Source: Beroe forskalii (taxonomy: Eukaryota; Ctenophora; Nuda; Beroida; Beroidae). From it: a DNA stretch of 64,000 nt. Below, in pieces: positions 22,448 to 58,535 of this stretch. Each line of letters starts with the position of its first letter. Position 1 is the first letter of the stretch. The notes under the pieces were generated by a model, which saw nothing but the letters and a program-made list of their open reading frames with translations, did no database searches and was not told the DNA's origin. The position numbers and the translations under genes were made by a program. Location: positions 1 to 64,000 of the forward strand of contig WFMF01000299.1 of NCBI GenBank assembly GCA_011033025.1, in the 5' to 3' direction.

Positions 22448-23722
22448 ATGTCCAATACCACATCATCCCATTCACCTCCACCTGCTGACTATGATCAGCC
22501 GAAAATCTCTGAAAATAACCAAACATTATCGCAAATACCTGAAACACAAAACACCAACACACCTTACACTTGCCTGATCACTCAATCATCTGAACCAGAT
22601 AACTATGAACCAACACTGACTTCGGATTCACCAAATCGACCTTGCAATACACCCTCAGCCAACGAACCTCATGCACCACACACAGCCAACAGTAAACCAT
22701 CCATATCATCAAGTGCCACCCATCAAGGAGGTTTCAAACTCAAACGCTCACAATCCACGATGTTTTCCTTCGCAAGAAACGTTTACAATACTAGAACAGG
22801 TGAAAAAGTAAAAAAGCGCGCGCACCGCACTGGTTTCCCAAAGCTGATTTTCAAAAAGCCCCCTGGTGCCACGAGCAATTCCAACTGCAACCCCAGAACT
22901 AACACCCCCTGGACACAAAGCAAGCTCCGCCTTAGAGACGCGCTGACTCACAAAGAGACAGACACCACTCACCTGCCCCGCCCAAACGCAGCACAAAAAC
23001 ATGCACCCACGACGCGCCTATCAAAAGAAAATGCCCCAACTGCGCCCGCGCGCACACCAGCAAAGCCCCAACCCATCAAATTGCTACGTAATTGCGCTTC
23101 AATATCTAACCGTAAATTTGTCGAAATGACCAAAGGCAAATTTAAAGACACAGCACCATACCCACTACACACAACAGTTACAAACCCTAACGACTCACCT
23201 CAACCCTACCATGGCGCGCGAGCACCCCCGACCATATATTCGCAGTCACACAAAAACACGCCGCCTCAGACCAAAAACCGCCACTCCACTTTTGCACCTG
23301 CCCCACAGTTAAACTCCCAACATCGGGTCGGCTCTTCGCCAATCACATTTGCTGGAAGTTGCCTGACCCCCTCGCGTTCGGCGGGCGCGCGCGCAGTGCG
23401 CGCGTGTCCGCCGGGGGCGGCGGGCTCGCGCGGCTCTACCAAGAGACCCGAAACCCTTCAACTCAAGCTAAACATTGGCAAGAACAAAATCTCTCCAAAT
23501 CATATCCCAACAACTCCAGCGTCAAAATTGAAAGAAAAAGTTATCCAAACACCGACTAATTCTCCCTTCAGAAGAAGAATCTTTCCCATAGTTCTCACAG
23601 AGAAAGGAAATGATGCCAAACAGAATTACCCAGCACAGAAAACGAACATAATAACCAATAACCTAAACCTCCCCGTAATTAAAATGAGAAACCCATACTC
23701 TAAACACAAACCAACCCCAAAT
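22448..23722 (+). pseudogene. N-terminal part of the LINE's long frame, cut by insertion
   Basis: The frame starts at ATG just after CTTACAGGTAGGAT (MSNTTSSHSPPPADYDQ) and stays open for 425 codons to the insertion point. It is rich in Asn, Thr, Pro, Ser and Lys with no recognised domain. A GC-rich hairpin lies inside it in frame. After the inserted element and its 2-bp duplication, the same frame resumes at 27062. Removing 23723-27061 (3339 bases, 1113 codons) leaves the frame continuous. The extra residues past 23722 are read-through into the inserted element. Confidence 0.6.
23380..23412. repeat. GC-rich hairpin inserted in frame in the LINE coding region
   Basis: GGCGGGCGCGCGCGCA and its imperfect complement CGCGCGTGTCCGCC flank a GTG-type loop. 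Translation switches from an Asn/Thr/Lys-rich run to SAGARAVRACPPGAAGSRG and back. A related hairpin lies at 22272-22310. Confidence 0.7.
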
Positions 23723-24430
23723 AATACAGCCGATTTTTGCAAAAATCGGGATGGACCTGGAACTGTTTTATAACAATTCATTTTCGGTTTCAGGGGCCAG
23801 TACAGGGTCTCAGGAAACCACAACAGAAAGTTCAAGATCCCAGCTAATGGGGGCGATGGTTTTCTGGGCCACGCCCTTTTTACAGGTGACGCGTAAGCCC
23901 TAAAAATTGAAATCTTTATTTTTTGTCCGATTTTGTTGAGTTTGGTGTCTGAAGAGGGGTATTTTGATACGAGAAAAACGATGGAAATGATATTGTTTAC
24001 TTTTGGGCATGATTTCACGTCCTAAAATTCAAAAAATGTGATTTTATGTTGTTTTTGGCCACTCCGGTAGCCCAGCCAAAGTCAGTATCCAATATCCGAG
24101 CAGAGAGTTTCTCAACGGTTTTTGATAGATCTTAGGGTCCTTTATCGGAAAAAATTTGCTGCCCTCCCGTGAATCGACGTCCTTATGGGTGCTGGTGCCA
24201 CGCCCATTTTTCCACTGAGGCAGCGTATGGGTTTAAACCCATAACTTGGCTCAGGAAGGTCGTACAGACTCCGTTTTGGGCTCAAACGAATCGCAATGGC
24301 CATGTTTATATACGACTTGTCAATAAACATATGCCCTAAAATGCTCACAAACCAAGTTATGGACGAAAAACTGATTTTGAGCCCAAAGCGCAAGCCAAAA
24401 TTTGGCTCTTTCTCATAATTTGTGCCAGGA
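23723..24430. repeat. Left terminal inverted repeat, PIF1 element copy A
   Basis: Reading inward it shows GACCTGGAACTGTTTTATAA, CAGGAAACCACAACAGAAAG and GGAAGGTCGTACAGACTCC, then CTCAAACGAATCGCAATGG. All appear complemented at 26350-27059. The GGAAGGTCGTA to GTTATGGAC segment (about 24255-24365) is also related to modules in the 43-46 kb foldback element. Confidence 0.9.
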
Positions 24431-24812
24431 ATGTCTAAATCTAAATCTTGGCTGTATAATCACATTCAAATGCATAATAGCAATGTCCTCATTTACAGTA
24501 TATAAAAAACGCAATTATCATGTTTACATTTATCATGAGAATAAAAATACAAAAAACTAGGTAACAGACCAAAAGCTGGATTTTGATCACATAAATTGCA
24601 ATGCAATACCTATCATGGGTTCATTCAGCCTCGGAAATCTGTATGCTATCAAGTTATTAAAGGTTAACATTGATCAATTACTTTACAATTGAGTTGCTGA
24701 AAGAGCCCTGACAGGACTCTAAATATTCCAATGAAGAGATCTTTGGCATATGTGGCTTCTTCAAGCCGAACAATCTGCCAAGTTACCAACTAACCAATGT
24801 CAGTACACTTCC

Positions 24813-26181
24813 ATGACCGGGGAGCAGCGAGCTTTTGTTGATCGGGTATTCGAGCTGATGAGTTGGCTGATCTCAATGTCAATGGGAGATTCCTATACCT
24901 GGAAGCTCTTCTGGTGCAGGCAAGTCCTACACCATGAACACCATCATAGATCGGTGTCAGGCTGAAGGAATTGGCTACGCTGCAACGGCTATGACAGGTA
25001 TGGCTTCACTGCTCATCTCCGATGGTAGAACTGCACATTCTACTTTTGAAATTCCTATCCCCTGTACGAGTTCGAACAAGTGCGACGACGCACCTGACCC
25101 CCCCCCCCCCCTGGGAGAAAAGCTCCGGGCGTGTGAATTTCTGGCATTGATGAAGGATCAATGATAACCATATTTCACACAGATGCCATTGATAGGATGC
25201 ACAGGGATATTAATGGGAACAGACAGACACCTTTCGGAGCCAAAGTGCTCGTGATTATGGGTCAGTTTGATCAGACTCTATGTCTCTATGTGTCGTCCCA
25301 GGGGTGACGGAGGGCGAGGTGCAGAGAACGTGCCTATTCAGTCATCCCGAGTAATGGCCTCTGGTCCGTCGGTATACGTTCACACGTAACATGCGTGCTG
25401 ATGCCAACAGTCCAGATGTCGTAAGTTGGAATAACTGGCTAAGTCAGGTCTCTCAGGGTACTACACCTCAACGCTCTTCTGACCCCCTCCCCGGGCAGAT
25501 TGATATCCCTGAGGAATGCCGTTCAATTCATCTAGATACAGGGGATATAATTGGGGAAGTGTTTGGCAATTTTGAGGAGGATGACAAACGTGGTATTCTT
25601 GCACCGCTTAACTACCACACTGACAATATGAATGAACGGATACTTAGGTTGTACACGGCTTACAATATTCAATAAGGTTAATTGGGATGGCTACAATCAC
25701 CTGTAACACCAGAACAAATGGCCCAAGTGAAATTTGGAAGTCTTCCTTCTCACAAATTTAACGTTATGGTCGGTGGCATAGTGATGTTGGTTAGGAAGTA
25801 GGAACCTGGACAGTAGGCGAGGCCTCACAAACGGTGTTCGTCTTAGGGTTGTTGAGCTTGGCGAGCATGTAATTAAGGTTAGAACGTAGACAGGGATCAC
25901 CGGAATTAAGAGACCTTCATCCCCAAAGTTACTCTGGATGCCACCCCAGATCAGGCTCAGAGGCTTGGCTTCAACACGAGCTGGACGAAGTTAAGCTTGC
26001 CTGGGCTATGACAATCAACAAATCAAACTCTCGAGCGTGTTGGCCTAATGCTACCAGAGCCTGTTTTTGGCAAGGCCTGTTCTATGTTGCTTTCAGCAGA
26101 ACCCGAGGTTATGATCGCTTCGTGGTTGCCATTGAGCCATTCACAATGGTTAAGTTAATGATCAATTTTAACATTTATTAA
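24813..26181 (+). pseudogene. PIF1-family helicase remnant, copy A
   Basis: Fragments in several frames follow the PIF1 motif order. The start is MTGEQRAFVDRVFELM, an initial motif of PIF1/RecD-type helicases. Next is the Walker A region SSGAGKSYTMN at about 24910-24940, then YAATAMTGMASLLISDGRTA and HSTFEIPIPC. A Walker B-like IDEGSM lies at about 25148-25165, then PFGAKVLVIMGQFDQT. Later come FEEDDKRGILAPLNYHTDNM near 25570-25630 and, near the end, WAMTINKS and FYVAFSR, the motif V and VI signatures. These enzymes unwind DNA using ATP and occur in Helitron RepHel proteins. No Rep nuclease precedes it. Frameshifts at Walker A and Walker B make it dead. Length, about 456 codons, suits a stand-alone helicase. 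Confidence 0.82.
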
Positions 26182-26349
26182 CATAATGTGGATTTTGGAT
26201 GCTGAATGGTCCCAATATTGGATTGCAATTTATGTAACCAAAATCTTGTTTTTGCTTGATTTGTGTGCAATGCACACACTGTGCATTTTAGAGCAAATAT
26301 TATTTTCAAGATAGATGTAAACATGATAATTAAAAATCTTTTGAACTAT

Positions 26350-27059
26350 TAAGTAATTACTTTAGACATTCCTTGCACAAGTTGTGAGAAAGAGCCGAAT
26401 TTTGGCTTTCGCATGGGCTCAAAATCAGTTTTTCGTTCATAACTTGGTTTGTGAGCATTCTGGGGCATATGTTTGTTGACAAGTCGTATATAAACATGGC
26501 CATTGCGATTCGTTTGAGCCCAAAACGGAGTCTGTACGACCTTCCTGAGCCAAGTTATGGGTTTAAACCCATACGCTCTCAGCGGAAAAATGGGCGTGGA
26601 ACCAGCACCCATAAGGACGTCGATTCACGGGAGGGCAGCAAATTTTTCCGATAAAGGACCTAAGATCTATCAAAAACCGTTGAAACTCTCTCTCTGCTCG
26701 GATATTGAATACTGACTTTGGCTGGGCTACCAGAGTGGCCAAAAAACAACATAAAATCCACATTTTTTGAATTTTAGGACGTGAAATCATGCCCAAAGTA
26801 AATAATATCATTTCCATCGTTTTTCTGCATCAAAATACCCCTATTTAGACACCAAACTCAACAAAATCGGACAAAAATAAAGATTTCAATTTTAGGGCTT
26901 ACGCGTCACCTGTAAAAGGGCGTAGCCCAAAAACTATCGCCCCATTAGCTGGGATCTTGAACTTTCTGTTGTGGTTTCCTGAGACCCTGTACTGGCCCCT
27001 GAAACCGAAAATGAATTGTTATAAAACAGTTCCAGGTCATTTCAAAAATCGGCTGTATT
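26350..27059. repeat. Right terminal inverted repeat, PIF1 element copy A
   Basis: The complement of the left repeat, ending ATCGGCTGTATT. The match extends into the interior as CATGATAATT-type sequence near 26320. Confidence 0.9.
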
Positions 27060-27061
27060 AT

Positions 27062-30000
27062 AAAGACACCAAGACCATAAAAATAGGACAAATTAAGACC
27101 CAAGACCTGAGTTTGGCCACGGAACCAAGTAACAAAATCACAGACACTGTATCACAAACAGATTTAGATTATCCCATTCAGTGTAATCAAAACTTAACTT
27201 TGACAGCCCACATCACTGACAGCCCCCAAAAAAATGTGCAGCTGGATACTCCCCCAATCACCAGCGTGCAAAAGAATACAACCCAATCAATTAAATCAGA
27301 CTCAGACATACCAACCAATCCAAAAGTAGAACTCCCCACCAGGCAAGATAAACTCACAGCAAAAATCTTAAGAGAATACCTAAGAAACCAGACCACAAAC
27401 AAGAAGACTGAACCCACAATCTGTAACCCAAACCATGCACCAGAAAAATCTACAGAAAAATCCACAGAAAAATCAACTAACCCCTCCCAAACTGATTCTG
27501 GAGACCCAAATGCAACAGACCATTTAATAACAAATATGGAAATCACCAATAACACAAATTCACCCCAGAATTCACAGACACAAAAAACAGATTCAAGGAA
27601 AAAAACACAATCCCTCATAACAGACATGATAAAACAGAAAACACATAATTTGGACATTACACCCCAAAACACATCAAATAAGAATAACAAATCAACCCTT
27701 AACTCAAAAATTGTCTCACAAGACCCCAAGGTAAAAACCAACCCAAAAAAGGATGAAAAAACAGAAAAAATTGACATGCAAAAGGAAAAAGTCCAGGAAC
27801 ACATAAACAAATCAAAACAAGCCAGAGGCCACACCACAAAAATTCACTTTGATAGTCATAAACCAAAAACAAGAAACATGGAATTCACACAGATAAATCT
27901 TCAGCATGCACATGAACCATCACTAACACTGAAGGAAAACATTGAATACTCACTAGACACTTCCTTACCCCATGCAATTTGCATACAGGAACCACTATGT
28001 AACATGTCCAACAAGTCAACAAATGTCCCATGGACATCCCAGATACATACACATGCCACTATAAATTAACTGAAAACCAAACCCCCAGAGCCATTATACA
28101 CACCTCAAAAATACTCCATGAAAATTGCTTGTACCATGATGAATTCTCTGACCGTGATACATGCACAATCTCAATAAAGATCCCTCAGATCAAAATAAAA
28201 GGCTATTCATCTGCTCTTCATACATGCCATATGAGAAAATCAAAGACGGATTATTTCTCCACCTTATCAATAAAGCAAACCAGTCAAAACAAGTGTCATC
28301 CTCTGTACTGACTCAAATGCTCAAAAGCACCAGATGGGGAAACAACTCGACAAATAACACAGAGGCAAACAACTTGAAGAAATAATTGATGACTATAACC
28401 TCACTATTCACAAATAAACTCGACTCCCCCACCTGAATCTGCAAGGGGGAAAACCTCAATTATTGACCTTACAATTACAAACATTTATGCACCAACTATC
28501 CCCAACTGGAATTGCCATCTAAACATGTCCACATCTGATCATCACTATATCCAATTCTCCTCAAATACAAACTCTAAACCAGCCAATTCAACATAGATTT
28601 AACATGAAAAAATGTGACTGGGTCCTATATAAAAAACACTAGAAGAAACTATCCTCAATCCAGTATTAGAGAAAATCCCAAAAAACAAGTGTGGACTAGA
28701 CTTCTGCACATCAAAACTAACCAATCTCATGAACAAAGCTTGAAAATCTTGTCCAAAAATAAAAGCACAAAATACACCCAAAAAGAAACCCTCAGAAACT
28801 CTCAATGCATTAGAAAGACCATAACAGGAAGCTTAGAAAAAATTCAAACCAAAAAGACACACCAGAAGGACTGAGACAAATGGAAATGAAGTGAAAAATA
28901 ACTATAAGAAAGGCAAAATCCTTTAATAAACTAATTAGAAAAGCAAGAATCAAAGCTTGGAAAAAGTATGCATCAAACATTGAATCAGTAAAAGAAACAG
29001 CAAGAATAACAAAAATCCTCAATAAAGGATACACAAGCCCCCTTGGAACTCTCAAAAACAAAGATGGGAACATAACACAAACTCCAATAGACACCCTCAC
29101 CACTCTGGCAGATGACCTCCTTGGCAAAGAGACTCTCAAAAAACCGGACCAAAATATTGAAAAGAACCTACACATTGAAGACATCAAAAAATTTATTAAC
29201 CCCTCAAGACTAAGAAAGCCATCAACCTTCTTAAAAGAATAAATCACCTGGACATGATGGAATCACAAATGAAATGATTAGAAATTCCCAGATAAAATAC
29301 AAGAGTGCCTCCTGAACATATAGCATATACCATGAACACATCCCTCTCACCTGGCAAATTGCCAACTCAGCAATCATTGCTAAACCAGGCAAAGATGATT
29401 ACTCAAAAACCAAATCCTAGAATAATCTCCACTTCTAACCTCCTAAAACTCCTCGAAACACTAGTCCTCTGGCACTTACAAGAAGACCTAAAATAGAAGA
29501 ATCACTTAACCCAAACCAATATGGTTTCCGCAGTGGGCACTCAACTGAAGCCATAATCACAAAAGTAGTTAACAAAATCCAAACAGCACTAAAACATGGA
29601 GATCATGCGCTAGGCATCTTCCTAGATATTCAAGGCATTTGACAACCTACCTATTCAAACCATAAAAGAAACTCTTGACAAAACTCCAGCAAAGGGCAAA
29701 ATTAGTAACTGGATCACCAACATGGTAACAACAGATACATTATCCTCCAGTTAGCTAATGAAAACATAGTTAGACTTATCCCAAAGGCTGCCCAAGGGGA
29801 GTCTTATCCCATTTCTTTGGAATTTAGTAGTTAACGACCTCCTCAACTTCTTCAAAGTTAGATAATCTCTAGCTTATGCAGACAGACTTACTTATACATA
29901 CACACAGGCTGCAGACAGAGACATCATCTTAGAAACCGCAGCTATATATTAAAAAGATTAACTCATGGTGCAATTCTAAAGGCCTAGAAATATGCTATAT

Positions 30001-31131
30001 TAAAACTCAAATAGTCTTCTGGACTAGAAATAACACAATCAAGAAACCAGAACATTAATATAAACAACATATCCATTGATGTAAGCAAAAAACAAAATAT
30101 CTAGGTATTACACTAGATGACAGATTCAACTGGAATGAACATATAGCTCAACAAATCAAAAAATACCAAAATATTTTCCTTCACAAAAAAAGAGCAATTG
30201 GAAAGACCTGAGGCCTGAAAGCCCTGACCACTATATGGATATACAATGCAATCATATTGCCAAAACTCAGCTATGAAAGGTGCTGCCTGGGCCATGACCC
30301 CAAACAAAACCCAAAAGAGACAGACTACTCTCTCTTCAAAATCTGATACTAAAATCAGCTCTTGCTCTGCCTCCAGTACCCCAGAATAGCATAAACTCAA
30401 TCATTACAAACAGCCTCCCACTGGACCTCTACTTAAAACAAAAATGCTTAACCCGATGTGCTTCCCTTGTTGCTGAAAATCACTGGACACTCAAAACTCA
30501 CACACACCGCAAGACTAACTACAAAACACATATGGAAGTAGCAGATGGTGAACTCAGACGAATCCTGGGAAAACTATATCACGAAATTTCAGATAAAACA
30601 AGACCTACATTAAATATCGAACAAAATTTGCAACTCAAATCACTCCAAAGGAACAGATTTAAGTTAGCACAAAAGAAAACACAATACAAATCTACACAGA
30701 TGGCTCAAAAGATTCAGAAGAAAACACAGGTTACGATTTACTACATTATGTTTGGAAAAGCAGGATACTCAGAATTTGGCCGTCTCAGAAACTTCAACTC
30801 AGTCTTCAGGCAGAAGCCCACAGCATCACTGCCAGTGCACAAAAACTCCTCTCATGGAACACAAAACAAAACATCATATTCTACAGTGACTCCCAAGCAT
30901 CTATTAAATCACTACAAAAAAACAAAATTAACCTCTAGAACCATTATGAAATGTAATGCCACACTTAATGAACTAGCCAGAAAAAACAACCAAGTATCCC
31001 TAAACTGGATCCCAGGTCATAGTGACTTTGATGGAAATGAAATCGCAGACTCACTTGCAAAAATGGGAAGCCCTCTGACAATCAATATAACATCATCAAA
31101 ATACCACACAAAACAATCATATCTAAACTGA
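27062..31131 (+). pseudogene. LINE ORF2: extension, endonuclease, RT, RNase H
   Basis: From 27062 to about 27875 the frame is again Asn/Thr/Lys/Ser-rich with no domain. Near 27875 NMEFTQINLQHAHEPSLTL and PHAICIQEPLCN mark the start of an apurinic-type endonuclease as in R1/I elements. After the stop at 28069 the gene is fragmented. RT blocks follow: KSPGHDGITNEM (about 29240), NQYGFRSGHSTEAI (about 29515), HALGIFLDIQ (about 29605) and an ADDL-like remnant (about 29880). RNase H ends with WIPGHSDFDGNEIADSLAKM (about 31003-31060). The sense strand is strongly A-rich and G-poor. Confidence 0.75.
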
Positions 31132-31139
31132 AAAATTAT

Positions 31140-31915
31140 TACACTGAGGGCCCATCTAAATAGATGGCAAATCAACAATCTACACTACGACTGTTCCTAC
31201 CTATAAGCTGTCTACTAAAAAAATGACTACAACCTCACAAAATTAAGCTACATAATCACAACTTCCAACAAAATCTCTACGCATTCTGCTAAAAATTATC
31301 ACTGGACACAACAGCCTCAACAGTCACCTTTACAGGAATGGAACATGGCACTAGAACCATCCTGTGAATATTGTGACCTTCAAAACTCAGGGTGGACTCG
31401 TTTTTCTGCCCAGACAGAAACAGCAATACACATTATCGAACTGCCCAGCCTTTGACATACTAAAATTCGCTATTTCGAAGATTTCAAAATCAAACTGAAG
31501 ACATCATAAACAGCAACCAACCACTTCCAAAAACACTCAATAACCTCACAAGATTCTTTGTCAAATCTGACTGCTTCAATAAAATCCCACAACCACTGAA
31601 CCAATTTCACCAGAAGATAGACCAACTTGGAACAACAACAACAACTATCTCTTCAACAACAACAACAACAAACACAACCACAACAATAACAACAACAACA
31701 GCAACAATTACAACATCAACAACAATCGTTTCCCTCTGTTCCAGGCAGTATCCTGGAACTGGGCTTTGCCCATTGAGCCCAGTTAAATCCTAATCAATGG
31801 GAATGCCTAATTTTTCACAGTCTGGCTGGGTCAGACCTCCCTGTGACCCGTCCTAGACGGGGAGGTGGTACACATAGCCACCTTCGGCAAGATCTCCGAC
31901 TTAATCAGCATGCAA
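31140..31915 (+). other. LINE 3' region with CAA repeats and stem-loops
   Basis: A C-x2-C segment (SCEYCDL, about 31360) is the remains of a C-terminal knuckle. A CAA-rich microsatellite spans about 31628-31730. Then come consecutive hairpins: TTCCAGG with CCTGGAA, CTGGGC with GCCCAG (31742-31785), and TCACAGTCTGG with CAGACCTCCCTGTGA (about 31816-31853). Such 3' structures can be recognised by LINE reverse transcriptases. Confidence 0.5.
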
Positions 31916-31919
31916 TGCT

Positions 31920-33540
31920 TTTTTTTGGGGGCTGATTTATCCCACCTTGGCGTTGGGCAACTAAACGGTCCCCCGAGGAAAAGGGGTCTGGAAAAAAAGG
32001 GGTTAACCCCCGGGCCCAGCTAAGGGATATTTTGGCATTTCCCGGGAAAAATTTTTTTTAAAAAAAACCCCACCCCCAGGTTTTCCCCCCCCCAAACCGG
32101 GGGGGTTGGGGCCCCTAGTTTTTTTGGGGAAAAAGTTTCTTTTTACTTTTTTAAAAAAACAAAAAAAAAAAAAGGGCTTTGGCCCCTTTTCTGTAACAAA
32201 ACCCCCAAAAAACCCAAAAAATTTAAAAAAAAACTTAAACTCAAAAATGTTTCCCTCGCCAGGGAACTTAAAAGGGCTTTGCCTTTTTTTAAAAAATAAA
32301 ACAATTTTAAAAATTTTCAACCCCCCTTTTCCCCCAGCGGGGGGGTCAAAAAACCCCTTCCCTTAACAGAGAAGCCCCTTGGCCATTTATCCCACCCACC
32401 CCTCAAGGGGACAAGGGCCCCCCACTCGTTTTCCCCGGGGGGCAAAAAAACCCGGGTTCCCCCCTTGGGCCCAAAAACTTTTAGGGATATTTATGTAGGG
32501 GCCCCGGCCTTTTAAAAAGATGGCTCTCAAGACTTTCCCCTTTTTGGGATGTCCCCCCCTCCCCCGAACAAATTTTCCCCCCCGAAAACCCGGGGCAAAG
32601 GGGGGAGAAATCCTCAAAAAAAATTTATTATTTTTTCAATTCCCGTTGGCCTAGTTTGATATTTTTCAATGTGCTTTTAAAAAATGCTTTTTTAAAAAAA
32701 AAAATTTTTTCCCTGAAATTCGTATGTAAAAAAAGGAAAAAAATGTTAAAATTTTTGATTTTGAAAAAAATCGAATAAAGGTTTTTATTCATAAATTTGA
32801 CGGGGGTTCTGTCTATTTTTTCGACTGGATATGGATGTCTTTTTTCAGCGAAAAAAAATTTATCTCCCCTATAAACGGGCCCAGTGACTACAGATCTAAA
32901 CGTCAATTTTCTTTTTAAAAACCCTTTTCCAAAAACCTAACTTTAAACCCCCCTAACCAACAAATCGTACCTAATCCCCTAACCTAGTCCCAAAGCCCAG
33001 GTGCGCTTAATTATTTTTTTGAGGACCATTTTATGGGGGGTACCCCTTCTTCCTCATCCCCCATGGATGGTGTGTCTGTAGCACGGTTTTTTTGCTAAAA
33101 AAGATCCCCGGTTATCGTCGCCGCGCGGCCCTTTTAAAACCCCCACACCAATCGGGGGAAGCCTTTTCTCACCAGATCCCCAGTTTTACGCGCGCGCCAT
33201 GCACCTTGCTCCCTTCAAAACCCCCCCGGGGGGTTTAAAGCCGCCGGCCCCGGGGGCGGGGGGCTTGTAAACCTTTCCCTTTTTCATTGCGCGGCGCCTT
33301 ACAACAAGGAAGGCCCGGGGACCCAGGATAACGTGAGCAATGCCAAAAAAAAGCCCCATAAAGGGGAAAAACGCCCCGTGACATCGGGATATTTTATGAC
33401 AGCAGCTGTTATCCCAGCTCATCTATCTTCCCCGTTTTTAAAAAATTCAGGCGTTTAAATTTTACAATTTTTGAGATCCCGGGGGTACAAACAGGGGATG
33501 GTTTAAAATTAAGAATGAATACATTTAAACCAACATCTTT
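31920..33540. other. Homopolymer-rich stretch, probably low-quality sequence
   Basis: Runs of A, T, C and G follow one another (for example GGGGGGTTGGGGCCCC and CCCAAAAAACCC), with no repeat period, conserved motif or sensible reading frame. This pattern is typical of base calls at the poor end of Sanger reads. No annotation inside this interval can be trusted. Confidence 0.65.
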
Positions 33541-33621
33541 TCATGAAGCTCATCTATATTGTTTTTTTTTCTTTTTATAGAGTGGGCTGTAGACACAGCT
33601 AAATTTTCTATTCATTCTAAG

Positions 33622-35375
33622 AAGCAACTACAAACGGTTAGCAACTACAAACGGTAAGCAACTACAAACGGTTAGCAACTACAAACGGTAAGCAACTACA
33701 AACAGGCAACCAAACGGCAAGTTAAACCACAAACGGTAAGCAACTACAAACGGTAGCAACCACAAACGGTAAGCAACCACAAACGGTAAGCAACCACAAA
33801 CGGTGTTAATCACAAACGGTAAGCAACCACAAACGGTAAGCAACTACAAACGGTAAGCAACTGTAAGCAACTACAAACGGTAAGCAATCACAAACGGTAA
33901 GCAACTACAAACGGTGTTAACTACAAACGGTAAGCAACTACAAACGGTAACTACAAACGGTAAGCAACTACAAACGGTAAGCAACTACAACGGTAAGCAA
34001 CCACAAACGGTAAGCAACCACAAACGGTGTTAACCACAAACGGTAAGCAACCACAAACGGTAAGCAACTACAAACGGTAAGCAACTACAAACGGTAAGCA
34101 ACTACAAACGGTAAGAACAAACGGTAAGCAACCACAAACGGTAAGCAACTACAAACGGTAAGTTAACCACAAACGGTAAGCAACCACAAACGGTAAGCAA
34201 CCACAAACGGTAAGGAACACAAACGGTAAGCAACTACAAACGGTAAGCAACTACAAACGGTAAGCAACTACAAACGGTAAGCAACTACAAACGGTAAGCA
34301 ACTACAAACGGTGCAACTACAAACGGTAAGACTATTAAACGGTAAGCAACTACAAACGGTAAGTTAACCACAAACGGTAAGCAACTACAAACGGTAAGCA
34401 ACCACAAACGGTAAGCAACTACAAACGGTAAGCAACTACAAACGGTAAGCAACTACAAACGGTAAAGCGTCCACAAACGGTAAGCAACTACAAACGGTAA
34501 GCAACTACAAACGGTAAGCAACTACAAACGGTAAGCAACTACAAACGGTAAGCAACCATAAACGGTAAGCAACTACAAACGGTAAGCAACTACAAACGGT
34601 AAGCAACTACAAACGGTAAGCAACTACAAACGGTAAGCAACTACAAACGGTAAGCAAGCAACTACAAACGGTAAGCAACTACAAACGGTAAGCAACCACA
34701 AACGGTAAGCAACTACAAACGGTAAGCAACTACAAACGGTAAGCAACTACAAACGGTAAGCAACCAAACGGTAAGCAACTACAAACGGTAAGCAACTACA
34801 AACGGTACAACTACAAACGGTAAGCAACTACAAACGGTAAGCAACTACAAACGGTAAAGCAACTAAAACGGTAAGCAACCAAACGGTAAGCAACTACAAA
34901 ACGTAAGTAACTACAAACGGTAAGCAACTACAAACGGTAAGCAACTACAAACTACAAAGGGTAAGCAACTACAAACGGTTAGCAACTGCAAACGGTAAGC
35001 AACTACAAACGGTAAGCAACTACAAACGGTAAGCAACTACAAACGGTAAGCAACTACAAACAGTAAGCAACTACAAACGGTAAGCAACTACAAACGGTAA
35101 GCAACTACAAACGGTAAGCAACTACAAACGGTAAGCAACTGCAAACGGTAAGCAACTACAAACGGTTAGCAACTACAAACGGTAAGCAACTACAAACGGT
35201 AAGCAACTACAAACGGTAAGCAACTACAAACGGTAAGCAACTACAAACGGTAAGCAACTACAAAGGGTAAGCAACTACAAACGGTAAGCAACTACAAAGG
35301 GTAAGCAACTACAAACGGTAAGCAACTACAAACGGTAAGCAACTACAAACGGTAAGCAACTACAAACGGTAAGCA
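33622..35375. repeat. 17-bp minisatellite, about 100 copies
   Basis: The unit GCAACTACAAACGGTAA repeats almost without interruption, with variants CCACAAACGGTAAG, GGTGTTAAC and GGTTAGC. Variants with CCAC and GTGTTAA concentrate in the first 600 bases, and the last 700 bases are nearly uniform. It ends about 115 bases before PIF1 element copy B. Confidence 0.95.
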
Positions 35376-36572
35376 GTTTTACAAAGCTTCTCCCTGGTCA
35401 CTAAGCTCAGGAGGAAGTCTTTAAATTTTAAGATTTGAAGTTAATTGAAGCTTGTTAAACTGAACGAACATAAAACTAAATGAACATTAATAATACAGCC
35501 GATTTTTGCAAAAATCGGGATGGACCTGGAACTGTTTTATAACAATTCATTTTTGGTTTCAGGGGCTAGTATAGGGTCTCAGGAAACCACAACAGAAAGT
35601 TTAAGATCCTAGCTAATGGGGCGATGGTTTTTGGGCCACGCCCTTTTACGGGTGACGCCTAAGCCCTAAAATTAAAATCTTTATTTTTGTCCGATTTTGT
35701 TGAGTTTGGTGTCTAAATAGGGTATTTTGATACGAGAAAAACGATGGAAATGATATTATTTACTTTTGGGCATGATTTCACGTCCTAAAATTCAAAAATG
35801 TGATTTTATGTTGTTTTTGGCCACTCCGGTAGCCCAGCCAAAGTCAGTATTCAATATCCGAGCAGAGAGAGTTTCTCAACGGTTTCTGATAGATCTTCGG
35901 GTCCTTTATCGGAAAAATCTGCTGCCCTCCCGTGAATCGATGTCCTTATGGGTGCTGGTGCCACGCCTATTTTTCCGCTGAGACACGTATGGGTTTAAAC
36001 CCATAACTTGGCTCAGGAAGGTCGTACAGACTCCGTTTTGGGCTCAAACGAATCGCAATGGCCATGTTTATATACGACTTGTCAATAAACATATGCCCTA
36101 AAATGCTCACAAAGCAAGTTATGGACGAAAAACTGATTTTGAGCCCAAGCGCAAGCCAAAATTTGGCTCTTTTTTTCATAATTTGTGCCAGGAATGTGTA
36201 AATCTAAATCTTGGCTGTATAATCACATTCGTCGCAATAGCAATGTCCTCATTTATATAAAAAACTTAATTATCATGCAATTGCTTACATTTATCATGAG
36301 AATAAAAATACAAAAACTGGGTAACAGACCAAAAGCTGGATTTTGATCACATAAATTGCAATGCAATACCTATCATGGGTTCATTCAGCCTCGGAAATCT
36401 GTATGCTATCAAGTTATTAAAGGTTAACATTGATCAATTACTTTACAATTGAGTTGCTGAAAGAGCCCTGACAGGACTCTAAATATTCCAATGAGGAGAT
36501 CTTTGGCATATGTGGCTTCTTCAAGCCGAACAATCTGCCAAGTTACCAACTAACCAATGTCAGTACACTTCC

Positions 36573-37941
36573 ATGACCGGGGAGCAGCGAGCTTTTGTTG
36601 ATCGGGTATTCGAGCTGATGAATCCCCCTCAACATGAGTTGGCTGATCTCAATGTCAATGGGAGATTCCTATACCTGAAAGCTCTTCTGGTGCAGGCAAG
36701 TCCTACACCATGAACACCATCATAGATCGGTGTCAGGCTGAAGGAATTGGCTACGCTGCAACGGCTATGACAGGTATGGCTTCACTGCTCATCTCCAATG
36801 GTAGAACTGCACATTCTACTTTTGAAATTCCTATCCCCTGTACGAGTTCGAACAAGTGCGACGTCGCACCTGACTCCCCCTGGGGCGAAAGCTCCGGGCG
36901 TGTGAATTTCTGGCATTGATGAAGGATCAATGATAACCATATTTCACACAGATGCCATTGATAGGATGCACAGGGATATTAATGGGAACAGACAGACACC
37001 TTTCGGAGCCAAAGTGCTCGTGATTATGGGTCAGTTTGATCAGACTCTATGTGTTGTCCCAGGGGTGACGGAGGGCGAGGTGCAGAGAACGTGCCTATTC
37101 AGTCATACCGAGTAATGGCCTCTGGTCCGTCGGTATACGTTCACACGTAACATGCGTGCTGATGCCAACAGTCCAAATGTCGTAAGTTGGAATAACTGGC
37201 TAAGTCAGGTCTCTCAGCTCAGGGTACTACACCTCAACGCTCTTCTGACCCCCTCCCCGGGCAGATTGATATCCCTGAGGAATGCCGTTCAATTCATCTA
37301 GATACAGGGGATATAATTGGGGAAGTGTTTGGCAATTTTGAGGAGGATGACAAACGTGGTATTCTTGCACTGCTTAACTACCACACTGACAATATGAATG
37401 AACGGATACTTAGGTTGTACACGGCTTACAATAAGGTTAATTGGGACGGCTACAACCACCTGTAACACCAGAGCAAATGGCCTAAGTGAAATTTGGAAGT
37501 CTTCCTCCTCACAAATTTAACGTTATGGTCGGTGGCATAGTGATGTTGATTAGGAAGTAGGAACCTGGACAGTAGGCGAGGCCTCACAAACGGTGTTCGT
37601 CTTAGGGTTGTTGAGCTTGGCGAGCATGTAATTAAGGTTAGAACTTAGACAGGGGATCACCGGAATTAAGAGGCCTTCATCCCCAAAGTTACTCTGGATG
37701 CCACCCCAGATCAGGCTCAGAGGCTTGGCTTCAACACGAGCTGGACGAAGTTAAGCTTGCCTGGGCTATGACAATCAACAAATCACACTCTCGAGCGTGT
37801 TGGCCTAATGCTACCAGAGCCTGTTTTTGGCAAGGCCTGTTCTATGTTGCTTTCAGCAGAATCCGAGGTTATGATAGCTTCGTGGTTGCCATTGAGCCAT
37901 TCACAATGGTAAAGTTAATGATCAATTTTAACATTTATTAA
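36573..37941 (+). pseudogene. PIF1-family helicase remnant, copy B
   Basis: Same motif series as copy A. MTGEQRAFVDRVFELMNPPQ retains six residues lost from copy A. Walker A is ESSSGAGKSYTMN at about 36677-36715. YAATAMTGMASLLISNGRTA follows, then IDEGSM and PFGAKVLVIMGQFDQTL with CVVPGV. RGILALLNYHTDNMNERI lies near 37360, and WAMTINKS with FYVAFSRIRGYDSFVVAIEP near 37765-37900. Several frameshifts coincide with those in copy A, including the one before Walker B, so part of the damage predates the duplication and these copies were probably mobilised in trans. Confidence 0.82.
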
Positions 37942-38099
37942 CATAATGTGGATTTTGGATGCTGAATGGTCCCAATATTGATTGCAATTTATGTAACCAA
38001 AATCTTGTTTTTTGCTTGATTTGTGTGCATCTTAGCGCAAATATTATTTTCAAGATAGATGTAAACATGATAATTAAAAATCTTTTGAACTATTAAGTA

Positions 38100-38810
38100 A
38101 TTACTTTAGACATTCCTTGCACAAGTTATGAGAAAGAGCCAGATTTTTGGCTTTCGCATGGGCTCAAAATCAGTTTTTCGTTCATAACTTGGTTTGTGAG
38201 CATTTTAGGGCATATGTTTATTGACAAGTCGTATATAAACATGGCCATTGCGATTCGTTTGAGCCCAAAACGGAGTCTGTACGACCTTCCTGAGCCAAGT
38301 TATGGGTTTAAACCCATACGCGTCTCAGCGGAAAAATGGGCGTGGCACCAGCACCCATAAGGACGTCGATTCACGGGAGGGCAGCAAATTTTTCCGATAA
38401 AGGACCCGAAGATCTGTCAAAAACCGTTGAGAAACTCTCTCTGCTCGGATATTGAATACTGACTTTGGCTGGGCTACCGGAGTGGCCAAAAACAACATAA
38501 AATCACATTTTTTTGAATTTTAGGACGTGAAATCATGCCCAAAAGTAAATAATATCATTTCCATCGTTTTCTCGTATCAAAATACCCCTATTTAGACACC
38601 AAACTCAACAAAATCGGACAAAAATAAAGATTTTAATTTTTAGGGCTTACGCGTCACCCGTAAAAAGGGCGTGGCCCAAAAAACCATCGCCCCCATTAGC
38701 TAGGATCTTAAACTTTCTGTTGTGGTTTCCTGAGACCCTATACTAGCTCCTGAAACCGAAAATGAATTGTTATAAAACAGTTCCAGGTCATTTCAAAAAT
38801 CGGCTGTTTT
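38100..38810. repeat. Right terminal inverted repeat, PIF1 element copy B
   Basis: The complement of 35492-36200, with the same internal landmarks as copy A. CATAACTTGGTTTGTGAGCA and GATTCGTTTGAGCCCAAAAC mark the module shared with the foldback element at 43-46 kb. Confidence 0.9.
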
Positions 38811-39051
38811 ATAAACTAAATGAACATTAAACTAAATGAATATAAAACTATAAAAGTTAAATACTATCAGGGAGTTTGCAAAGCTAGCCTCAGTCCTGGG
38901 ACCACTCTCAAAGGAAATCATTTGGGACACCACCTACATTAACGGTTAGATGCTGTTTTGAATTTACTTTTAGTTGCTTGGTTCGGGTAAATCGGGTTGT
39001 TCCTGATTTTATTATCAGCACTTGAAATAATTATAGTAGTCTCATTAGTTA

Positions 39052-43180: not shown

Positions 43181-43237
43181 CCATTATTTAAAATTTTAAA
43201 CGCCTGACAAATAAAATCACATTCTTTGTATTATAAT

Positions 43238-46200
43238 TTACTCTAGTAGCAGGGTGTAGTTGAGTGTGCACTTCGTTGGCCACAAAGTTTCTCGGTTCAA
43301 GGTCGTTTATTATGTTATTCTGCACCAGAATCACCTAGGTACGCAATTTGTATCGCTACTATGGACCCTGTGGGGCCATTTTTGTAATCCCCCTCAGGCG
43401 CGTATAGTGAAAATTCATATCTCCGTCCAGGAAGGTCGTAGAGACTTCATTTTTAGCTCAAACGAATCGCAATGACCATGTTTTTATGCAATTTTTATCG
43501 CGAATATGCCTTAAAATGCTCAGGAAAAAAGTTATGGACCAAAAACTGGTTTTTTAGTGTATCGCTAGCAAATTACACATGTTGATTCCATATCTCGGTC
43601 CAGGAAGGTCGTAGAGACTTCGTTTTGAGCTCAAACAAATCGCAATGACCATGTTTTTATACAATATTCAATGTAAATATGCCTTAAAGTGCTCAGAAAA
43701 GTAGTTATGGGCCAAAAAGTGGTTTTTCAGTGTAGCGCAAGCCTATATAATGCTGCATACCAATGGGGATTTTGCATCTCAGTTCAAGAAATACCTCCAG
43801 ATTCCATCTTAACCTAAACACAGGGTGGTTGAATGTTTATAAAGCAAAATTTTAAGCCAGATTCACTCAGGTACCTACTGTATGCAATTTTATTGCTGTT
43901 CAGATCCCTGGTAATCTATTTTCTTAATTGCCCTATGTTGCTTACTGCATAGTGAGAATTTGCATCTTGGTTCAAGAAGATCATAGAGACTTGGTCTTAA
44001 GCTTGAAAATCTGGAATGGCCATGCTATTCATATTCAATTTGTTATAACATTAGTAAGTATGTTAAACATAGAAGGACTCAGGGAAATGTTATGGAGGAT
44101 TCTTGTAAATTGTTCCAGGAGCACATGAGACTTCGGTTCTTGTACTATGGAGGATATTTTAGGCAATTCTGCTATTCTGAACCCGAATCACCTAGGTAGC
44201 TAGATAAACCCTGGACTGTGTCCTTTTTTCTTAGTTGCCCTTTGGCATGTCTTAAGACCTTAAGTTTTACAGAAATAAATAAAATTCATATCTTGGACCA
44301 GTAAGATCCAAGGTAGTACAGAAATAAACATTCGCCTCATATACTGTACCAATCAAGGAACTTCCTAGCTAGTTTGTCACTTCGTCCTTCAAAGTGACTC
44401 TTACTCCTCTATCAAAGTTTCTTCTTGCTCAGATTATTCATGAAATTCAACTAGCTAGGTTAAACTTTCGAGAACTAGCAATAAAACGTAGCTAGGAGAT
44501 CCTAGAAGGTACTTCCTTGCTAGGATCCCCAAGCTGGTTTTCTTGCTAGTTCTTCCAGGAATTTAGTTGACTTCGTTTCTTGCACTTCAGAGGATTTTTA
44601 GGCAATTCTCAATCAGAATCAGCTGGGACCTCCTAGCTACGGTTTTATTGCTTGTTCTCGAAAGTTAAACCCAGCGAGTTGAAATTCATGAATAATCTGA
44701 GCAAGAAGAAACTTTGATAGAGGAGTAGGAGTCACTGAACTTTTGAAGGACGAAGTGACAAACTAGCTAGAAGACGCTAGCTAGGTGATCCTAGCTAGGA
44801 GGCCTTAGCTAGAAAGTTCCTTGATGGGTACAGTATATGAGGCAAATGTTTATTTCTGTACTACACTTGGATCTTGAAAAAACAAGATATTTGAAGAAAA
44901 CAAGATATTTAAATTTCATACTGGTCCAAGATATGAATTTTATCTATTTCTGTAAAAGTTAAGGTCTTAAGAAATGCCAAAGGGCAACTAAGAAAAAAGG
45001 ACACAGTCCAGGGTTTATCTAGCTACCTAGGTGATTCGGGTTCAGAATAGCAGAATTGCCTAAAATATCCTCCGTAGTACAAGAAACGAAGTCTCATGTG
45101 CTCCTGGAGCAATTTACAAGAATCCTCCATCACACAGGTTGGCCAAAGCAAATGTTCCAAATTAAAAGTAAATATCATGAGTACCTACTTAATAACATTT
45201 CCCTGAGTCCTTCTATGTTTAACATACTTACTAATGTTATAACAAATTGAATATGAATAGCATGGCCATTTCAGATTTTCAAGCTTAAGACCAAGTCTCT
45301 ATGATCTTCTTGGACCAAGGTGCAAATTTTCACTATGCAGTAAGCAACATAGGGCAATTAGGAAAATAGATTACCAGGGATCTGAACAGCAATAAAATTG
45401 CATACAGTAGGTACCTGAGTGAATCTGGCTTAAAATTTTGCTTTATAAACATTCAACCACCCTGTGTTTAGGTTAAGATGGAATCTGGAGGTATTTCTTG
45501 AACTGAGATGCAAAATCCCCATTGGTATGCAGCATTATATAGGCTTGCGCTACACTGAAAAACCACTTTTTGGCCCGTTACTACTTTTCTGAGCACTTTA
45601 AGGCATATTTACATTGAATATTGTATAAAAACATGGTCATTGCGATTTGTTTGAGCTCAAAACGAAGTCTCTACGACCTTCCTGGACCGAGATATCAAAT
45701 CAACATGTGTAATTTGCTAGTGATACACTGAAAAACCAGTTTTTGGTCCATAACTTTTTTCCTGGGCATTTTAAGGCATATTCGCGATAAAAATTGCATA
45801 AAAACATGGTCATTGCGATTCGTTTGAGCTATAAAAATGAAGTCTCTACGACCTTCCTGGACGTAGGGGTGTCACAACGCGTACTTGCGCACAAAGTACT
45901 AGCACGAAATTACGATAAAAAGTGTAACACATTTTTTCGCATAAAAAGTGTCCTAACTCAAGATGTATAAATGTGTTCTGTCTGAAATTTGGATATATGC
46001 CATAGAACACATAGACCGAGCATCCGGATTAATTTTTTCCGGAAATTTTGCTCCTAACGGAAGTTATGGCCTAAAATGACGCATTTACAAAATTTGTGTA
46101 CACAAATGCTCATATCTCGTCTCATGATTCGATTTTCAGAAAAATTTAATCCGGATGGCTGTTAATTATGTTTTTCAACTTTTCTGAAAGTTTCATGATG

Positions 46201-46994
46201 ATTCGATGAAAAATGGGGAAGATAGAAATTTGACAAAACCCATTTTTTCACCGGGACTCGCGAAACTGACAAAATATACCCAAACAACGAAACTAATCAG
46301 CGCGCACGTGCTACGCTTCAACATTTAGAATTGCGCGCACCGTGGGAATGCACGGGGGCGCTTGCGAGCTATCAAACAGTGTTTTCAGATTTGTTTTACG
46401 TCTATCCTGAGCCGAGTTATGGACGAAATACGTCGGAATTTTGACCAGTTGACTTTGGAGATTGATAATTCTACTTCTACATAATGTATTTCCCTGAAAA
46501 TTCCAAGAAACGTTAGAGAAAGGATTAAGCTTTGATTTCCATGCTTTATCTTGTAATTTGAGCGATGATTTTCCATTCAATCGCGTTTTTTGTGAGGACA
46601 GTAGATGTGCGTAATTTCAAGCGAAATTTCGTCGTTGCACATTTTGAGCGCGGCTCCTTGCCCACGTGCAGCCTATAACTCTCTTAAATTATCGAGAAAA
46701 CCAATAAAACTTAGTTTGTTTGAAAGAACTCATCGTGCTGATCATTTTGGTACCATTTTTGTGGGGAATCTTCCAAGTTGATTTTTCATGTGACCCCCCT
46801 AGTTGACGGAGATATGAATTTTCACTATACGCGCCTGAGGGGGATTACAAAAATGGCCCCACAGGGTCCATAGTAGCGATACAAATTGTGTACCTAGGTG
46901 ATTCTGGTGCAGAATAACATAATAAATGACCCTGAACCGAGAAACTTTGTGGCCAACGAAGTGCACACTCAACTACACCCTGCTACTAGAGTAA
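43238..46994. mobile_element. Giant foldback element, arms about 1.3 kb
   Basis: The left arm (43238 to about 44510) starts TTACTCTAGTAGCAGGGTG and the right arm (about 44625-46994) ends with its complement. The spacer is only about 100 bp. The arms match closely along their length, apart from a 938-bp hAT-like insert in the right arm. TTATAAT and TTATCAT flank the ends as a possible 7-bp duplication. Each arm contains several diverged modules of about 150-180 bp with GGAAGGTCGTAGAGACTTC and AATCGCAATGACCATGTTT. No protein gene is recognisable. Confidence 0.88.
45864..46801. mobile_element. hAT-like MITE nested in the foldback element, copy 1
   Basis: It starts TAGGGGTGTCAC and ends GTGACCCCCCTA, short inverted termini like those of hAT elements. 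The foldback left arm, which lacks it, shows the empty site (TCCGTCCAGG). TGGACG and TTGACG flank it as an imperfect short duplication. There is no transposase. Confidence 0.8.
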
Positions 46995-47119
46995 TTATCA
47001 TTATTATTATTTTGTTCGTCGTAACGTCTGTAGTATGGATACACTTACAGGTGCGCGCGTTGCACGCTTTCATTTCTGTTAAACGCTGTTTTGGTCTCGT
47101 TGCTCATCACTTTTGATCT

Positions 47120-57221: not shown

Positions 57222-58535
57222 TAAAAAATGGTACCATTCTAGAAAAGGGTCGAAAATCATCAACAAAAAATGGTACCATTTCAGAAAAGGGCCAAAAATG
57301 GTACCATTTCAGAAAAGGTTCGAAAATCCGCAACAAAAATGGTACCATTTCAGAAAAGTGCCAAAAATCTTCAACAAAAAATGGTATCATTTCAGAAAAG
57401 TGTTGAAAATCATCAACAAAAAATGGTACCATTTCAAAGAAGGGCCAAAAATCTTCAAGAAAAATGGTACCATCAGAAAAGGGTCGAAAATCATCAACAA
57501 AAAATGGTACCATTTCATAAAAAGGCCAAAGATGGTGCCATTTCAGGAAAGGTTCGAAAATCCGCAACAAAAATGGTACCATTTCAGAAAAGTGCCAAAA
57601 ATCTTCAACAAAAAAGCAAAAAATGGCACCATTTCAGAAAAAGGTTGAAAATCGTCAACAAAAAATGGTACTATTTAAGAAAAGCGTTGAAAATCAACAT
57701 CGAAAAATGGTACCATTTCAAAAAAGGGCCAAAAATAGTCAACAAAAAATGGTACCATTTTTACTGGTGTAAGCGTTTGCTAGCTCGTAGAGCTATTGCT
57801 TCCCTCAGTCAGCTAACTTCGCACCTTCTTCGTCCTCTTACAGAGTTCCTCATAACTTGTCTTTTAATCTTTAAGTCCTTAACTTTGTAAGAACATTTTT
57901 AAATTGATCTCTATTTTTATGTATCAGAGGAAGAGCGATATGAAACTTTGATTGTAATCTATAATAAAATGATTATTTAATTTTTTTTAAAAAGAAAGGG
58001 TCGAAAATCATCAACGAAAAATGGTACCATTTCGGAAGAGGGCCAAAAATGGTACCATTTCAGAAAAGGTTCAAAAATACGCAAAAGTAAAGAGTACCAT
58101 TACAGAAAAATGCCAAAAATCTTCAACAAAAAATGGTACCATTTCAGAAAAGGGTTGAAAATCTTCAACAAAGAATGGTACCATTTCATAAAAAGGGTCG
58201 AAAATCCTTCATAAAAAATGGTACCATTTCAAAAAAGGGCCAAAAATCGTCAACAAAAAATGGTACCATTTCAGAAAAGGGCGAAAAATCTTCAACGAAA
58301 AATGGTACCATTTCAGAAAAGGGTCGAAAATCCTAAACGAAAAATGGTACCATTTTGGAAGAGGGCCAAAAATGGTACCATTTCAGAAAAGGTTCGAAAA
58401 TACGCAACAAAAAATGGTACCATTTCAGAAAAGGGTCGAAAATCCTCAACAAAAAATGGTACCATTTCAGAAAACGACCAAAAATCCTCAACAAAAATGG
58501 TACCATTTCGTAAAAAAGTTAAAAATCGTGAAAAA
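57222..58535. repeat. GGTACCATTTC minisatellite, interrupted
   Basis: Units of about 40-42 bp contain AAAATGGTACCATTTCAGAA and AAAATC-TCAACAAA. Arrays at 57222-57765 and 58000-58535 are separated by unrelated sequence. Because many units are 42 bp, several frames stay open for 100-200 codons on both strands (NGTISEKGRKSSTK-type). I treat these as repeat artefacts. Confidence 0.9.
57766..57995 (+). other. Insert within the minisatellite, possible retrotranscript 3' end
   Basis: Unlike the flanking repeat. It ends ATAATAAAATGATTATTTAA, then a T run and an A run. AATAAA near the 3' end hints at a processed or LINE-derived tail, but no coding match is clear. Confidence 0.3.

Follow-up and report, generated by a model that had tools for sequence, protein, structure and literature searches.

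Helitrons are not known to have long terminal inverted repeats (TIRs) or to make target duplications, and in them a Rep nuclease is usually fused to a PIF1 helicase. Among Academ transposons, the accessible part of one report gives target duplications of 3 or 4 bp for AcademX and of 9 or 10 bp for AcademH (PMC10045372). A third kind of system, the Pack-TIR, encloses between its TIR ends sequence that does not come from transposable elements; the accessible part of a survey in animals counts 370 cases, of which 323 are hAT or Tc/mariner (PMC8277862). Here we describe two elements, copy 1 and copy 2, in a 64,000-base stretch of Beroe forskalii DNA (contig WFMF01000299.1; C357:1-64000; hereafter the window), together with the family to which they belong in the 216-Mb assembly (1,134 contigs) over which our searches extended. 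Long TIRs enclose PIF1 sequence in both elements. Sequence comparison makes it very likely that the family is non-autonomous and mobilised by an Academ transposase, and that the helicase is a captured, dead passenger of Helitron type.

An earlier note on the window had placed two copies of about 3.3 kb at 23723-27059 and 35492-38810, with inverted repeats of about 700 bp. These coordinates were borne out to within 1-2 bases, and the arms measure 700-718 bp, with 93.2% identity in copy 1 (718 versus 700 bases) and 94.4% in copy 2 (712 versus 707 bases). Beyond the matched arms another 120 bp or so aligns at about 73% identity, which suggests that the ancestral arms were about 960 bp long. The features of the two copies are as follows.

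23719..23721, no strand: left flank AAA of copy 1, no exact match to the TAA at 27061-27063
23722..27060, 3,339 bp, forward strand (oriented by PIF1): copy 1 (C357a), whole element, from its tips and arms and from alignment with the 21 others
23722..24439, forward strand: left inverted arm of copy 1, from the arm alignment (1-718 versus 1-700, 93.2%)
24800..26200, forward strand: PIF1 pseudogene core of copy 1, 95% identical to the copy 2 core, frames broken, PF05970
26361..27060, reverse strand: right inverted arm of copy 1, from the arm alignment
27061..27063, no strand: right flank TAA of copy 1, from the flank comparison
35488..35490, no strand: left target duplication TAA of copy 2, from the flank comparison
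35491..38811, 3,321 bp, forward strand (oriented by PIF1): copy 2 (C357b), whole element, from tips, arms and alignment
35491..36202, forward strand: left inverted arm of copy 2, from the arm alignment (1-712 versus 1-707, 94.4%)
36560..37960, forward strand: PIF1 pseudogene core of copy 2, from PF05970, alignment with the copy 1 core and motif positions
38105..38811, reverse strand: right inverted arm of copy 2, from the arm alignment
38812..38814, no strand: right target duplication TAA of copy 2, from the flank comparison

The PF05970 matches of both copies score over the curated cut-off and, like the tip count given below, speak against a chance resemblance. The motifs SSGAGKSYT, IDEGSM, TINKS and FYVAFSR, which the earlier note had read as those of a PIF1 gene, do occur in that order, but they do not make up one gene: they lie in different frames with stops between them, and the PIF1 'gene' is therefore a pseudogene.

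The two copies belong to a multicopy family. Its 18-base tip, TAATACAGCCGATTTTTG, was found at 109 sites in the assembly with two mismatches or fewer, compared to 12 sites for a reversed control pattern. Among the tip sites listed, 53 have no or one mismatch (47 and 6, respectively); 42 of these are the ends of 22 paired copies, and 11 are unpaired. Most complete copies measure 3.0-3.5 kb. A core search of the assembly detected the PIF1-like core in all 22 paired copies, and 19 of them entered the core alignment, with C99 (too long), C802 (excluded by choice) and C264 (read in parts) omitted. The larger subfamily comprises 17 aligned copies with a median core divergence of 3.2% (136 pairs). 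The second subfamily, C252a and C252b, has members 3.0% apart from each other and at a median of 18.5% from the other copies (34 pairs). Three unpaired tips, C427:157238, C524 and C558, were read in part, and over the part read the first of these matches C252a at 95.7%. An exact 3-bp flank duplication was present in 18 of the 22 paired copies, while an exact match of 4-8 bp was present in none of them. The 3-bp target differs among sites, with AAT, TAC, GTG, CGC, TCT, TCA, TAA and TTA as examples. By eye, an extra stretch in C252a and C252b resembles a tRNA-derived insert.

The state of the helicase was assessed with a 259-residue read-through from the family as query. It had 68 matches across the assembly, none of them a family copy with its helicase intact. 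Besides the query's own copy, C1047 and C1069 span all 259 positions, each with one or two stops, and the long stop-free PIF1 frames among the 68 belong to Helitron-type or other loci outside the family. Comparison of the PIF1 cores revealed breaks common to copies of the larger subfamily. Three breaks, located at the Helitron-protein stretches QFPVK, SQGQ and HGQ, were detected as exact patterns in 16/19, 16/19 and 19/19 copies, respectively, and both C252a and C252b were positive at all three. A short insertion makes a fourth break, which is present in 16 of the 19 copies and in neither member of the C252 pair. Between C35 and C252a, substitutions at codon positions 1, 2 and 3 numbered 55/293, 53/292 and 48/293 (chi-square p=0.73), and the corresponding values against C252b were 43/255, 48/256 and 42/257. 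Since the breaks are common to both subfamilies and the substitutions show no codon-position bias, the coding function of PIF1 had already been lost when the two subfamilies diverged, and there has been no constraint since.

The earlier note had also proposed a PIF1 phylogeny. In our tree, whose 14 rows all come from this genome, the two rows taken from the elements cluster with the Helitron helicases L001, L002, L003, L086 and L005 (support 100/99), apart from L078-L084; the rows for L005 and L086 were each assembled from two segments, and the branch of L005 is long. In Pfam, L001 has the domains Helitron_like_N, PIF1 and Pif1_2B. By its position in the tree the captured helicase is a Helitron-type PIF1, and other PIF1 lineages were rejected as donor on the same placement. 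In every aligned copy the match to the Helitron protein begins near L001 residue 494-538, and the Rep part is not matched. Identity of the element PIF1 to the three Helitron proteins L001-L003 is 33-36%, so none of the three is the direct donor, and no close intact relative was found among the 68 PIF1 matches in the assembly. A protein-collection search, in which candidates were limited by length and shared words so that relatives can be missed, returned a 143-residue fragment at 86% identity and two more distant proteins, one of 727 residues at 32% and one of Helitron type at 30%, whose label is Lupinus albus. Of the two possibilities raised in the earlier note, the one upheld, in refined form, is a non-autonomous element with a captured portion of a Helitron gene. 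Two loci of a PIF1 lineage that is not of Helitron type, L081 (C432:164473) and L082 (C1099:15669), carry PIF1 in open frames of 2,814 and 2,871 amino acids, respectively.

If the helicase is dead, what moves the family? A search of the assembly for DUF6589, which we take to be an Academ transposase family, returned one locus, on C441 (L074, C441:41500-50000), which carries a 1,297-residue open frame and a Pfam match at E=1e-6. The arms of L074 are about 316 bp long and 95% alike, its frame is without stops, and by these features it may still be active. From base 1 onwards, the family TIR aligns with the right arm of L074, scoring 44 compared to 40.5 for the best of 300 shuffles (0/300 as good). 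Searching the assembly with the L074 protein gave 29 matches, grouped as 13 loci. One of these, C237 (C237:227425-233755), has the tips TAATCCACCCG, flanks AAA on both sides and inverted arms of 273 bp at 94.5% identity. With BLAST, 239 aligned bases of the left arm of C237, beginning at base 30, are 78.2% identical to the family TIR, and bases 1-20 give a short match of their own; for the right arm, 268 bases align from base 1 onwards at 77.6%. When the two arms are aligned end to end, the alignments start at the tip, and the likeness extends over about 262 bp. The family core itself is not matched in any of L074, L087 and L088. About 10 extra bases stand just inside one tip, which is that of the 3' arm in C237 and that of the arm 5' of PIF1 in the PIF1 family; if those arms correspond, PIF1 would be oriented opposite to the former transposase gene. 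At least 25 of the two-mismatch tip sites among those listed read TAATCCACCCGATTTTTG, near the C237 tips, and a family related by such tips may be widespread in the genome.

A transposase profile was built from 30 sequences, namely L074 and 29 of its 60 relatives; the relatives with an organism named in the source come from a mollusc, insect or sea spider. The best match of the profile to chains of Exonuclease 1 has E=1.1e-4, and 11 of the 30 sequences carry DUF6589 according to Pfam. A 3-bp duplication together with an Exonuclease 1-like, XPG-type nuclease fits AcademX. We propose that an AcademX-type Academ transposase made elsewhere in the genome would move the family by cut-and-paste, binding the shared tips, excising the element and inserting it at a 3-bp staggered cut. 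PIF1 would have been captured once, either through template switching during repair or through a nested insertion that was later trimmed, and would have been copied passively, with no part in transposition.

A number of observations weigh against this proposal. The partnership with an Academ-type transposase is only probable, being drawn from sequence comparison, and our Academ label for DUF6589 is tentative. The left arm of L074 has no significant match to the family TIR (20/300 shuffles as good), and the Cys-rich end of L074 scores only E=0.2. With only about 78% identity to the family TIR, C237 is not necessarily the helper; its transposase is split into several fragments, one of which contains a stop. 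No XPG family is listed by Pfam for the 30 profile sequences, where a single PIN_3 match appears at 0.044. Four of the 22 paired copies lack an exact 3-bp repeat: copy 1 (AAA versus TAA), C1075, C508 and C614. Finally, neither the 22 paired copies nor the unpaired tip sites read wholly or in part (seven of the 11, all but C169, C427:134941, C880 and C1069:386285) revealed an autonomous copy bounded by TAATACAGCCG.

The genome-wide TIR search for longer copies, another check put forward in the earlier note, revealed no transposase in the longer copies. C802 (9.4 kb) was rejected as an autonomous version, its middle being a long tandem repeat with a period of about 52 bp in self-comparison. Extra blocks were located at differing places in C99, C172, C327 and C1047, and extra sequence also in C264 (8.6 kb, read in parts). 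The unpaired tips of C603, C469, C449 and C611 (4.6-5.2 kb each) were also rejected as autonomous, with a longest open frame of at most 156 amino acids; C469 and C449 have only 27-36 bp in common with the family.

The mover could alternatively be a transposase of another superfamily that makes 3-bp duplications, in which case the likeness of the C237 arms would come from sequence exchange between elements. The tentative status of the Academ label leaves room for this, and blocks do occur across elements, as illustrated by a subterminal TIR block of about 140 bp that is present in another element of the window. However, the likeness includes the tips and is collinear through both C237 arms, C237 has its own AAA duplication, and the Exonuclease 1 match and the 3-bp duplication both fit AcademX. 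We consider an origin of the likeness by exchange very improbable.

Other explanations give the helicase a role. A lost Academ lineage with 3-bp duplications may have used a Helitron-derived PIF1 as an accessory helicase, both subfamilies being internally deleted fossils of such a hybrid. This would account for a nearly whole helicase core at the identical place in both subfamilies, and helicase-encoding Academ lineages are reported in the accessible part of the literature (AcademH; PMC10045372). We nevertheless find it quite unlikely: none of the 13 Academ-type loci has a listed PIF1 match within 200 kb, Pfam detects no PIF1 in the 1,297-residue L074 frame, PF05970 is listed in none of the 60 L074 relatives, and coding constraint has been absent since the subfamily split, the period that the comparison covers. 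The other possibility raised in the earlier note was a new class of TIR transposon that uses or has captured a PIF1 helicase. A class that at present uses its own PIF1 draws on the fact that PIF1 is the sole recognisable coding sequence in these elements, but it is hardly credible given that the 68 matches include no intact family copy, that the breaks are shared and codon constraint is absent, and that the TIRs show homology to the TIRs of a family bearing a DUF6589 transposase. A non-autonomous family moved by an Academ transposase, with the helicase as a passenger, is the explanation that we prefer.

Copy 1 splits a long frame (22448-28069). When its flanks are joined without the element and 3 bp, the frame runs for 759 codons to the first stop; any loss of a multiple of three bases preserves this frame, so the result agrees with a 3-bp duplication without proving it. 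Neither half of the split frame matches any Pfam family. Downstream, at 30532-31128, there is a match to RNase H, and given this match the interrupted frame may belong to a retrotransposon. A 17-base unit, AAGCAACTACAAACGGT, is repeated about 104 times in a minisatellite that occupies 33622-35375 and stops just ahead of copy 2. The window also holds a third long inverted-repeat element, at 43230-47001, with arms at 43230-43427/46805-47001 (97.5%) and 43421-44093/45192-45866 (97.8%) and a further inner repeat at 78%. One of its arms is split by about 940 bp (45867-46804), its flanks possibly carry a 3-bp ATT repeat, as judged by eye, and its block in common with the TIRs studied here, about 140 bp long, is about 81% identical. 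At 57224-58527, a frame of 206 amino acids is kept open by tandem-repeat blocks whose 42-base unit is of the type AAAAATGGTACCATTTCAGAAAAGGGTCGAAAATC...

Our findings remove a candidate for a new transposon class and replace it with a testable pairing between a non-autonomous family and a DUF6589/nuclease transposase family, its probable mover. Here the 22 paired copies of one kind of transposon bear an enzyme core that comes from another kind. There is a pitfall in this for annotation, since a PIF1 match between TIRs resembles the element's own gene and yet would be a fossil passenger. In the library searched, we found no literature joining Academ transposons with PIF1, though print may hold more, and only Helitron and Helentron work turned up on captured PIF1 or Helitron helicases with TIRs.

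Compared to Helitrons, the family shares a PIF1 core of Helitron type, but it differs in its inverted arms of about 700 bp, in its 3-bp target duplication and in its dead helicase. It resembles Pack-TIRs in being multicopy and in having TIR ends that enclose captured coding sequence; its captured piece is nonetheless transposon-derived, whereas the accessible part of the Pack-TIR survey specifies sequence from outside transposable elements (PMC8277862). With AcademH it has in common the association of an Academ element with a helicase, as far as the accessible part of that report describes it (PMC10045372), although AcademH duplications are 9-10 bp and those of the family 3 bp, with no flank match of 4-10 bp, and the helicase of the family is a broken PIF1 of Helitron type. 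The family differs from AcademX in having no internal transposase, in arms of about 700 bp compared to 273 bp in C237, and in the Helitron-type pseudogene inside it. What it shares with AcademX are its 3-bp duplications and TIRs homologous to those of an element with a DUF6589/nuclease transposase in the same genome.

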